Of a stretch of DNA of 64,000 nucleotides, positions 28,920 to 58,737 are shown one piece after another. Under the pieces are notes generated by a model. It saw only the letters and a program-made list of their open reading frames with translations, searched no databases and was not told the DNA's origin. Both the position numbers and the translations under genes were made by a program. Position 1 is the first letter of the stretch; the number at the start of each line of letters is the position of its first letter. The DNA comes from Candidatus Rokuibacteriota bacterium. GTDB lineage: Bacteria; Methylomirabilota; Methylomirabilia; Rokubacteriales; CSP1-6. The stretch lies in the NCBI GenBank assembly GCA_016200085.1, contig JACQFL010000008.1, forward strand, positions 62,001 to 126,000, written 5' to 3'.

Positions 28920-28925
28920 GGAAGG

Positions 28926-29103
28926 GTCCCTGCGCTGCCCGTGATGTCGGCGGGAAGTTTCAACCTCGTACTCACATCGGGAGCCGCAAGCGAGGGTGGT
29001 GTGCAAGCCCCTCTTCGAAGGGGAAGCCTGAAGCCCTCCGAGCCGGCGCCCACCTGGTACATACCAGGTTCGAAACACCTCGGCACACGACAGAGGTGGG
29101 GAC
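28926..29103 (+). ncRNA. ssrS: 6S RNA candidate
   Basis: About 178 bases between zapA and rny. The ends pair: GTCCCT with GGGGAC, CTG with CAG, CGTG with CACG, and TGTCGG (28945-28950) with TCGGCA (29080-29085), giving a long interrupted closing stem. An open central region follows, and an apical hairpin (CCCCT, loop CTTCGA, AGGGG) is followed by GAAGCCT, matching the E. coli 6S apical stem and its AAGCCU. A small hairpin ACCTGG/CCAGGT sits in the 3' side of the bubble as in E. coli. 6S RNA binds the sigma-70 holoenzyme in stationary phase. Confidence 0.72.
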
Positions 29104-29104
29104 C

Positions 29105-29184
29105 GATTGAATCGGGGGCTCCGAGCGCCCCCAAGCCCCCCACGCTCGCAATCGCCCCGGGGTACCCGGGGCGCTGCTCGATTC
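29105..29184 (+). repeat. Dispersed palindromic repeat family 1, copy 6
   Basis: Directly after the 6S RNA candidate. Hairpin 1: GGGGGCTCCGAGCGCCCCC. Hairpin 2: CGCCCCGGGGTACCCGGGGCG, then CTGCTCGATTC. It could terminate the RNA. Confidence 0.6.
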
Positions 29185-56769: not shown

Positions 56770-57327
56770 ATGCCCGAATCGATCCCCGCGCCGCTGATCA
56801 TCGACGTCCTGAAGGACACGTTCCGCGAGGCCCGCGCCGCGCTCGCGCAGGAAGGCTGGCGGCAGAAGGGCGACCATCTCGGCACCATCCTGAGCGTGCC
56901 CGACACCCACCAGAAGTCCGTGCTCGCCGCGCTGGACAAGGAGCAGGCGATCCGCGTGATCACCTGCGCCACCGAGGACGAGGCGGCCACCATCAACGCC
57001 GGGCTCTGGATGGGCGGCGAGCCGGTGGTGCTGATGATCCAGCACGCCGGGCTCTACGCCTCCATCAACACGCTGCGCGGGGTGGCCATGGACGGCAAGG
57101 TGCCGACCTTCTACATGATCGGCCTGCTGAGCCGCGAGAAGGACAAGGACCCGAAGGACTCGCGGCACTCGATGGTCCGCTTCGCCGAGCCGCTGCTCGA
57201 CACCTTCGGCGTGCCCCACGCGCGCATGGAGGGACCCGATGACGTGCACCTGATCCCCGAGTACTATCGGCTGGCCCAGCAGCGCAAGGGGCCCGCGGCC
57301 GTGCTCGTCGGGCTGGAGACCGCGTGA
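56770..57327 (+). CDS. Thiamine-diphosphate decarboxylase-like, PYR-domain subunit (sulfopyruvate/phosphonopyruvate decarboxylase alpha-like)
   Basis: 185 residues, corresponding to the pyrimidine-binding domain alone. TCATEDEAATINAGLWMGGEP contains the conserved Glu that activates the ThDP aminopyrimidine; VLMIQHAGLYASINTLRG and GPDDVHLIPEYYRLA match the ComD/phosphonopyruvate decarboxylase N-terminal domain. The catalytic PP domain is on the next gene, whose start is coupled (TGATG), so the two form a split heteromeric enzyme. The decarboxylated 2-oxo acid is unknown. Confidence 0.85.
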   Translation: MPESIPAPLIIDVLKDTFREARAALAQEGWRQKGDHLGTILSVPDTHQKSVLAALDKEQAIRVITCATEDEAATINAGLWMGGEPVVLMIQHAGLYASINTLRGVAMDGKVPTFYMIGLLSREKDKDPKDSRHSMVRFAEPLLDTFGVPHARMEGPDDVHLIPEYYRLAQQRKGPAAVLVGLETA

Positions 57328-57914
57328 TGGCGATGAAGCCGGAAGAGATCCTCCAGGCCATCCACGCCGCGCGCGGCGGCGCGATCTGCATCCCCACCAT
57401 GACCACGTCGCCCGCCTGGCGGACCATCGCGCCCGACGACCTCTCGGTCGGCTGCGTCGGCTTCATGGGCGGCGCCTCCTCGCTGGGCCTGGGGCTGGCC
57501 CTGGCGAACCCGGACCGGCGCGTCGTCATCTTCGACGGCGACGGCTCGCTGCTGATGCAGCTCGGCTCGCTCGCGACGATCGCCGGGGCCCGCCCGCGCA
57601 ACCTCACGCACCTGCTGTTCAAGAACGGCGTCTACCACACCTCCGGCTCGCAGGTGACGCCGGGCGGGCTCACCGTCGACTTCGTGCAGATGGCGCGCGG
57701 GGCGGGCTACCGGAACGCCTACGCCGTGCGCGACTTCGAGGACTTCAAGAAGCGGTTGCCCGCGGTGCTGAGCGAGGAAGGCCCACTGTTCGTCGAGCTG
57801 CACACCGGCCTGGCCGAGAAGACCCCGATGACCGACCGTGGCGGCAAGCCGTTTCACGAGCAGGTGGACACGCTGCGCCGGAGGCTCCTCACCGCCGCAG
57901 GGGGTGCCGCATGA
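57327..57914 (+). CDS. Thiamine-diphosphate decarboxylase-like, PP-domain subunit (ComE-like)
   Basis: 195 residues. The diphosphate/Mg-binding motif is GDGSLLMQLGSLATIAG..., from GDGS to the Asn in FKNGVYHT, the ThDP signature. LSVGCVGFMGGASSLGLGLALANPDRR precedes it. It pairs with the PYR-domain subunit encoded immediately upstream, like sulfopyruvate decarboxylase alpha/beta or phosphonopyruvate decarboxylase halves. Starts considered: ATG 57327, or GTG one codon earlier. Its stop overlaps the OsmC-like gene (ATGA). Confidence 0.86.
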   Translation: MAMKPEEILQAIHAARGGAICIPTMTTSPAWRTIAPDDLSVGCVGFMGGASSLGLGLALANPDRRVVIFDGDGSLLMQLGSLATIAGARPRNLTHLLFKNGVYHTSGSQVTPGGLTVDFVQMARGAGYRNAYAVRDFEDFKKRLPAVLSEEGPLFVELHTGLAEKTPMTDRGGKPFHEQVDTLRRRLLTAAGGAA

Positions 57915-58327
57915 GCGACCTCAAGATCGACACGGTGAAGTCCTACTCCAGCGGGACGGTCGGCCGCGCGCTCAACACCGCGCGCACCCAGCACTTCGTC
58001 ATCGACTCGCCGTCGGGGCCGAACGAAGCGCTGACCTCGGGCGAGGCCTTCCTCGCCGGCGTGTCGTCGTGCGGGGTGACGCTGGTGGAGCGCCACGCCC
58101 AGGAGACCGGGGTGCCGCTCACGCGCATGGCCGTCACCATCGAAGGGGTGCGCGCCGTCGCGAATCCCACGGTCTTTCAGTCCGTGACCATGCGCTTTGA
58201 ACTGGCGGGTGTCAGCCAGGCTCAGGCGGACGCGCTCGTGGAGACGTACAAGAATCGCTGACCGCTCTATCGCACGGTCGCGGTCGCGACCAAGGTGACG
58301 GTCGAGGTGGCGGCGAAGCCCGCGTGA
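57911..58327 (+). CDS. OsmC-like protein, probable selenoprotein with in-frame TGA read as selenocysteine
   Basis: OsmC/Ohr proteins reduce organic hydroperoxides with two conserved Cys, one in an SSCG-type motif and one in a C-terminal CP motif. Here the first is present (GVSSCGVTLVERHA), but the frame meets TGA (58259-58261) directly before Pro-Leu-Tyr-Arg: ETYKNR-TGA-PLYRTVAVATKV. Reading through gives Sec117 at the expected CP position and a 138-residue protein, the usual family length, ending at the TGA 58325-58327. That second stop overlaps the next gene's GTG (GTGA), as at most junctions here. A SECIS-like hairpin follows the TGA. Stopping at 58261 would leave 116 residues without the second redox residue. 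Confidence 0.8.
58262..58301 (+). promoter_or_regulatory. SECIS-like hairpin for Sec insertion
   Basis: GGTCGC (58276-58281), loop GGTC (58282-58285), GCGACC (58286-58291), with a lower CAC/GTG pairing across an AAG bulge and CCG/CGG (58262-58264 with 58299-58301) closing it. The apical loop lies 20 bases after the TGA and contains GGUC, the same loop bases and nearly the same distance as in E. coli fdhF. Confidence 0.65.
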
Positions 58328-58737
58328 GGCTCGCGGACCCGCAGATCCAGGCCTTCCTGGCCACCAAGGACGTCGTCGTCCTGGCCACCGTGCGCCCCGA
58401 CGGCGGTCCGCTCGCCATGCCCATGTGGTTCGTCCACGACGCGGAGGCCGTCACCATGCTGAGCGTGAACGGCCTGGCCAAGATCGCCAACATGCAGCGC
58501 GACCCGCGCGTGTGCGTGGTGGCCGAGGCGGGCACCCGCGGCGACGTGCGCGGGGTGACGGTTGTCGGCCGCGCCGCGTTCCTGGCCGACTCGCCGGAGC
58601 GCCGCGCGCTGGTCGAGCGCTTCCACGCCAAGTACGATCCCCACCTCGTGCGCCTCTGGAACGGCCGCGCGATGCCCGCCAACCGGGTGATGTTCCGGAT
58701 CACGCCCGACCGCGTGGGCGCCTGGGGGCTCGGCTGA
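58324..58737 (+). CDS. Pyridoxamine 5'-phosphate oxidase-fold flavin/F420-binding protein
   Basis: 137 residues from GTG overlapping the read-through OsmC stop. The split-barrel fold is clear: VVVLATVRPDGGPLAMPMWFVHD, then LSVNGLAKIANMQRDPRVCVV and VTVVGRAAFLAD. The length and pattern fit the PPOX-class proteins (TIGR03618-like) that use FMN or F420 to reduce small molecules. It is not PdxH, which is encoded at 63263. Cofactor and substrate are uncertain. Confidence 0.85.
   Translation: MRLADPQIQAFLATKDVVVLATVRPDGGPLAMPMWFVHDAEAVTMLSVNGLAKIANMQRDPRVCVVAEAGTRGDVRGVTVVGRAAFLADSPERRALVERFHAKYDPHLVRLWNGRAMPANRVMFRITPDRVGAWGLG

Follow-up and report, generated by a model that had tools for sequence, protein, structure and literature searches.

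The gene at positions 57911-58327 (forward strand) of the window, i.e. of the whole 64,000-nucleotide stretch analysed here (G000:C26:62001-126000), almost certainly encodes a genuine selenoprotein of the OsmC/Ohr superfamily, as judged from its reading frame and from its relatives. Its predicted selenocysteine (Sec) does not replace the first cysteine of the fold. The family keeps Cys in the first column and carries Sec as U-P-L-Y in the second (resolving) one, and from the alignments it appears to be a new positional variant in which the second redox position of the OsmC fold bears Sec. A known selenoprotein family would thereby gain a subfamily that differs in where Sec sits, and the benefit of selenium at this position becomes open to direct study. 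A gene caller that halts at the in-frame TGA reports a 116-residue product without the second redox residue. The features of the gene are as follows.

57911-58327, forward strand: OsmC-family selenoprotein gene, 138 residues with the predicted Sec117, plus the final TGA
57965-57967, forward strand: Arg19, invariant (Arg in 37 of the 37 copies that reach this column), only a candidate for the catalytic Arg of Ohr
58043-58045, forward strand: Glu45, invariant (39 of 39 copies), nine residues ahead of Cys54
58070-58072, forward strand: Cys54 (TGC), first (peroxidatic) Cys column, Cys in 39 of 39 family copies
58259-58261, forward strand: TGA, predicted to be read as Sec117 and followed by PLY; codon 117, TGA in 39 of 39 copies, second (resolving) Cys column of Ohr/OsmC, in alignment with the Cys of the CP motif in Ohr chains of known structure
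58276-58291, forward strand: SECIS-like hairpin GGUCGC-GGUC-GCGACC, whose loop begins 20 bases past the UGA

Reading frame and domain structure

The open reading frame starts with ATG at 57911, contains the in-frame TGA at 58259-58261 and ends with a second TGA at 58325-58327. Residues 36-132 match the OsmC domain PF02566 over profile positions 1-100 with 51.3 bits (gathering cut-off 27.5), and this match crosses the TGA, so that the claim of the initial annotation that translation past this codon is still OsmC-like was borne out. Equally, its placing of the TGA at the resolving-Cys position of OsmC proteins, followed by Pro, is supported by alignment to Ohr chains, in which the first Cys is matched by Cys54 and the Cys of the CP motif by codon 117. 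An AlphaFold model built from two sequences, with Cys replacing Sec, reached a mean pLDDT of 66 with residues 14-41 below 50; the fold search with this model returned OsmC/Ohr and structural-genomics entries on ranks 1-38 and S-adenosylmethionine synthases from rank 39. A single-sequence structure model (pLDDT 51) was rejected as poor.

Selenocysteine machinery

The source genome is a draft of 3.57 Mb with 94.6% completeness. The initial annotation had proposed the presence of Sec machinery as a test of its claim, and the genome contains tRNA-Sec (selC, C54:9397-9490, 69.8 bits), selB (C54:12343-14226, 362.7 bits) and selD (on C12, 334.8 bits), each above its model cut-off. The open reading frame between tRNA-Sec and selB (C54:10934-12331) was recognised as selA by visual inspection rather than by a model match. 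The selD gene (L048, G000:C12:115796-116740) likewise contains a TGA in frame, together with a hairpin of similar type. Above their cut-offs, tRNA-Sec was detected in 31 and selB in 34 of the 39 family-carrying genomes. One or both were detected in 35, leaving four genomes (G058, G061, G078, G087) with neither selB nor tRNA-Sec above cut-off. In the source genome selB and tRNA-Sec lie close together, and a single assembly gap could remove both.

Distribution in the phylum

In the set of 95 genomes of the phylum the protein search matched 40 and the profile search 41 genomes. With the weak TGA-free matches in G007 and G088 excluded, the family is present in 39 of the 95 genomes at 41 places. 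The analysis comprises 39 copies that are intact around the TGA, including the window, two copies from G092 and two copies without the N-terminal part; their pairwise identity in the alignment ranges from 46 to 95%. A fragment (G069:C461) and the copy of G064, which is broken two codons past the TGA, were left out of the counts. The former still has the TGA, PLYRTVA and the hairpin codons. In the latter (G064:C333, L089) homology to the focal gene stops at the break, which may represent a decayed gene or an assembly join.

A scan of a genome collection for Cys relatives outside the phylum, which finds close relatives only, yielded one locus, from Candidatus Rokubacteria 13_1_40CM_69_27 (L017). 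Its gene region matches the one of G086 in the set without any difference, and on this basis we take the phylum to be the one that includes Rokubacteria (Methylomirabilota). The search of plasmids for such relatives gave none. Close Cys homologues, which would support a selenoprotein without being indispensable, were sought in the 95 genomes, and the TGA-free matches were only weak (E about 2e-4 to 3e-4). In the phylogenetic tree the focal set forms one group (support 0.79) with L072 beside it; as nearest kin of the family L072 was set aside, since only 19 of 129 positions are identical. In these data, Sec at the second column of the OsmC fold occurs, by the alignments, in a single lineage.

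We favour the selenoprotein reading because the Sec machinery is present and because the homologues keep the PLYR-like extension, which had been named in advance as a test and is found in 39 of the 40 near-full copies with G064 as the exception. An ordinary stop at the TGA, followed by a merely fortuitous open frame, is extremely improbable: the loss of homology two codons past the TGA in this one copy of 40 would suit it, but TGA, PLY and extension are kept in all 39 intact copies and the Pfam domain runs through the TGA.

Codon conservation around the in-frame TGA

All 39 copies have TGA at codon 117. The final stops of the same copies are mixed (TGA 23, TAG 11, TAA 5), and the codon of Cys54 is TGC in 36 and TGT in three copies, never TGA. 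For codons 36-116 the mean entropies at the first, second and third codon positions are 0.55/0.42/1.00 bits; for codons 118-121 they are 0.12/0.00/0.81 bits, for the hairpin codons 122-127 0.03/0.29/0.22 bits and for codons 128-136 0.73/0.66/1.21 bits. After the final stop they amount to 1.83/1.77/1.86 bits, counted unaligned, which exaggerates randomness. Codons 118-127 are therefore more conserved than those before the TGA; codons 128-136 are conserved somewhat less and show a third-position excess of the coding type.

The downstream hairpin

The hairpin of the window, GGTCGC(GGTC)GCGACC, has a stem of 6 bp. In the sequence of the window alone this is weak evidence, because a 6-bp hairpin arises at such a distance in 23% of synonymous resamplings. 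Likewise, the folding energy of the 45-base stretch of the window is not significant, as 29% of synonymous resamplings are at least as stable. The argument comes from recurrence: the initial annotation had described a hairpin with loop GGUC 20 bases past the TGA, and a stem of 6-7 bp with a four-base loop starting at exactly this distance was found in 39 of 39 family copies, against a mean of 29% in synonymous resamplings. The stem is invariant among the 39 copies and shows no compensatory changes.

The second loop base is G in every copy. Residue 125, to which it belongs, is variable, with Gly in 16 copies, Val in 11, Ala in 10 and Asp in two. All of these are encoded by GNN codons, and the G is thereby preserved. 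Silent sites around it are frozen: Thr122 is ACG in 38 of 38, Val123 GTC, Ala126 GCG and Thr127 ACC in 39 of 39 copies each, and Ala124 is GCG in 35 and GCA in four. Among 42 conserved Ala, Thr, Val, Gly, Pro, Leu, Arg and Ser columns only Thr122, Val123, Ala126 and Thr127 use a single codon, all of them within the hairpin, and none of the other 38 is codon-frozen. For all four to fall among the five hairpin columns the odds are 5 in 111,930, a figure that ignores relatedness and the after-the-fact choice of region. Two Ile columns outside the hairpin (59 and 77) are likewise codon-frozen (ATC).

As a positive control, 48 other TGA-bearing OsmC genes were examined by a laxer criterion (stem of 5 bp or more, a G at loop base one or two) to which no chance rate is attached, and 46 of them have such a hairpin. 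Their loops start mostly 17-20 bases past the UGA, two of them at 26.

Position of selenocysteine among OsmC selenoproteins

The comparison set consists of these 48 TGA-bearing OsmC genes outside the focal family, picked among the phylum matches listed. In all 48 Sec is aligned to focal Cys54, i.e. to the first (peroxidatic) column; their motifs are UxxT in 13, UxxxT in 33 and neither in two cases. The column of the focal Sec is occupied by Cys in 46 and by Ser in two of them, and by Cys in 13 of 19 TGA-free OsmC paralogues sampled. The alternation of TGA with TGC or TGT, which the initial annotation had proposed to look for, consequently exists across the wider OsmC family only; among the close relatives all 39 copies have TGA.

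OsmC-like selenoproteins with the motif UxxT were detected in the Sargasso Sea and GOS surveys (NF041052, OsmC_like_Se). They share with the focal family the PF02566 fold, a UGA followed by a hairpin and one Sec per protein, but the focal motif is UPLY and resides at the other Cys column. Hence, the connection with survey selenoproteins made by the initial annotation holds for the OsmC family and not for the Sec position. The focal protein scores 25.5 bits with NF041052, below the curated cut-off of 95. We take UxxT to denote the first column because L116, which has U-L-M-T there, passes this model; the portions of the cited papers available to us name no column. In the accessible parts of PMC1088965, PMC2398784, PMC9312934 and PMC13188914 UxxT is the only motif given for an OsmC selenoprotein, and the accessible part of PMC12013277 does not mention OsmC. 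Within such partial texts we found no OsmC/Ohr selenoprotein beyond the UxxT type, and an earlier mention elsewhere is possible. The catalogue of 2026 lists 119 families and subfamilies and, according to its Table 1 in the portion available, treats different Sec positions as distinct subfamilies (PMC13188914). The same source, in its available part, cites Deng et al. 2026 for 63 selenoprotein genes in a Methylomirabilota MAG.

Eight paralogues were scanned with NF041052 as domain pieces and only L116 passes (131.6 bits versus 95). Below the cut-off, with Sec at the first Cys, are L076 (LGAUTSMT), L070 (LGSUTSIT), L071 (LGTUVGIT), L078 (LGAUTVLT), L125 (VAGUMTGT), L127 (LGAUTLSN) and L119 (LATUMTTT), some of which may represent uncatalogued subfamilies. 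L119 and L136 (UMTTT) are without a hairpin of the searched kind and show no Cys in the region read; they must therefore be the two paralogues with Ser at the second column. The source genome itself encodes another OsmC selenoprotein (L143, G000:C15:75222-75527) with Sec at the first Cys and LAFULMTQ as in L116.

Active site and possible reaction mechanism

In Ohr the first Cys attacks the hydroperoxide, helped by Arg and Glu; the sulfenic acid so formed condenses with the second Cys, and the bond between them is finally reduced by a lipoylated protein (PMC5962072, PMC8945050, in the parts available). The focal family shares with Ohr (TIGR03561) the fold and the two redox columns, with the first Cys in place in 39 of 39 copies, but differs by Sec in the second column, by a Glu column that is not kept and by an Arg column that is not clearly kept; the focal protein scores 23.1 bits with TIGR03561 (curated cut-off 88.85). 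The catalytic Glu of XfOhr stands ten residues ahead of its Cys (PMC5962072, in the part available). The corresponding focal residue is Ser in 28, Gly in eight, Ala in two and Val in one of the copies. For Arg19 the alignments disagree: at the edge of one alignment it stands opposite Arg20 of 9jxc, and in another opposite an Ala of 4mh4. The Arg of the GGRDG motif of 4mh4, which we take to be the catalytic one, falls on focal Thr16. With Glu shifted by one position and Arg inconsistently aligned, retention of the Ohr triad Arg-Glu-Cys is not supported. PDB 2opl, a solved relative, has the first Cys and a PVYNTVA stretch (compare PLYRTVA of the family) but Ser in the Sec column, so that proteins of this kind do not necessarily use the second position for redox chemistry.

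The UGA at 58259-58261 would be decoded as selenocysteine by SelB with Sec-tRNA, directed by the downstream hairpin. The alignment suggests that Cys54 and Sec117, which lie on the two redox columns, probably constitute a redox pair that most likely passes through a selenenyl sulfide during the cycle. We infer that a dithiol partner would reduce this bond, either an AhpD-like or a lipoylated protein in line with reports on Ohr/OsmC, with an organic hydroperoxide as the most likely substrate. The order of attack is more delicate. In most selenoenzymes Sec is the attacking residue. Since the residues that activate the first Cys of Ohr are not kept in their columns, we lean tentatively towards an inverted active site with swapped roles, in which Sec at the former resolving position would attack and Cys at the former peroxidatic position would resolve. 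This arrangement is plausible from the aligned columns but somewhat short of an even chance, and the same holds for the explanation as a whole, i.e. redox pair, hydroperoxide substrate, dithiol reductant and attack by Sec117 taken together.

The conventional order, with Cys54 attacking as in Ohr and Sec117 as resolving residue, is rather unlikely. It agrees with the match of both columns to those of Ohr, peroxidatic for Cys54 and resolving for Sec117, and in the other selenium paralogues sampled Sec is at the first column, the site of attack; however, with Ser, Gly, Ala or Val in the Glu column and the Arg column not clearly kept, Cys54 would be left without the known activation. The same apparent loss of both columns also bears on a different proposal, namely that the selenoprotein serves some redox function apart from hydroperoxide reduction, by analogy with the YhfA branch. 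This branch has the same fold (1ml8 was matched), and the Ohr-type Arg and Glu are apparently absent from the focal family as is reported for the surroundings of the first Cys in YhfA (PMC8945050, in the part available); the focal family differs from it by Sec in the second column, and PRK10738 (NF008009) matches only three of 25 members, and these weakly. Scores under the curated cut-offs of both the Ohr and the OsmC models would fit such a role, but Ohr chains are the best profile matches among the solved proteins in the PDB, and we consider it unlikely. If the inverted site with attacking Sec117 is correct, one fold would offer two natural selenium placements in the same cell, in the focal protein and in its paralogue on C15, so that the effect of moving selenium would become directly measurable.

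Genomic neighbourhood

The gene is embedded in a compact arrangement on the forward strand.

56770-57327, forward strand: N-terminal-type subunit of a ThDP enzyme, upstream, weakly similar to sulfopyruvate decarboxylase alpha (below cut-off)
57324-57914, forward strand: C-terminal-type subunit of a ThDP enzyme, upstream, overlapping the OsmC start by ATGA at 57911-57914
58324-58737, forward strand: PPOX/PNPOx-class gene, downstream, its start in GTGA at 58324-58327 shared with the second TGA

The split ThDP subunits (56770-57914) resemble models of sulfopyruvate and phosphonopyruvate decarboxylases with scores below cut-off, and a methyltransferase gene also lies downstream of the focal gene. 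The coupling of the next gene to the second TGA by GTGA, noted from the outset, is seen in the overlap at 58324-58327. The operon described in the initial annotation does exist in the window, but no trace of the partner genes was seen next to the gene in relatives: in tblastn searches the five window neighbours gave nothing at E <= 1e-5 in 49 loci of 38 other family-carrying genomes. These loci span 2.1-7.0 kb and the linkage test is limited to that range. As controls, the window itself was recovered with each of the five neighbours, and every one of the 49 loci with the OsmC part. The partners consequently do not define the function of the focal gene. Clustering of open reading frames gave as the largest shared neighbour cluster one present at nine of 39 loci and restricted to one genus (among the 25 clusters listed, with clusters over the gene itself excluded). 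Elsewhere in the window, at 28924-29106, a 6S RNA was detected (RF00013, 80.9 bits).
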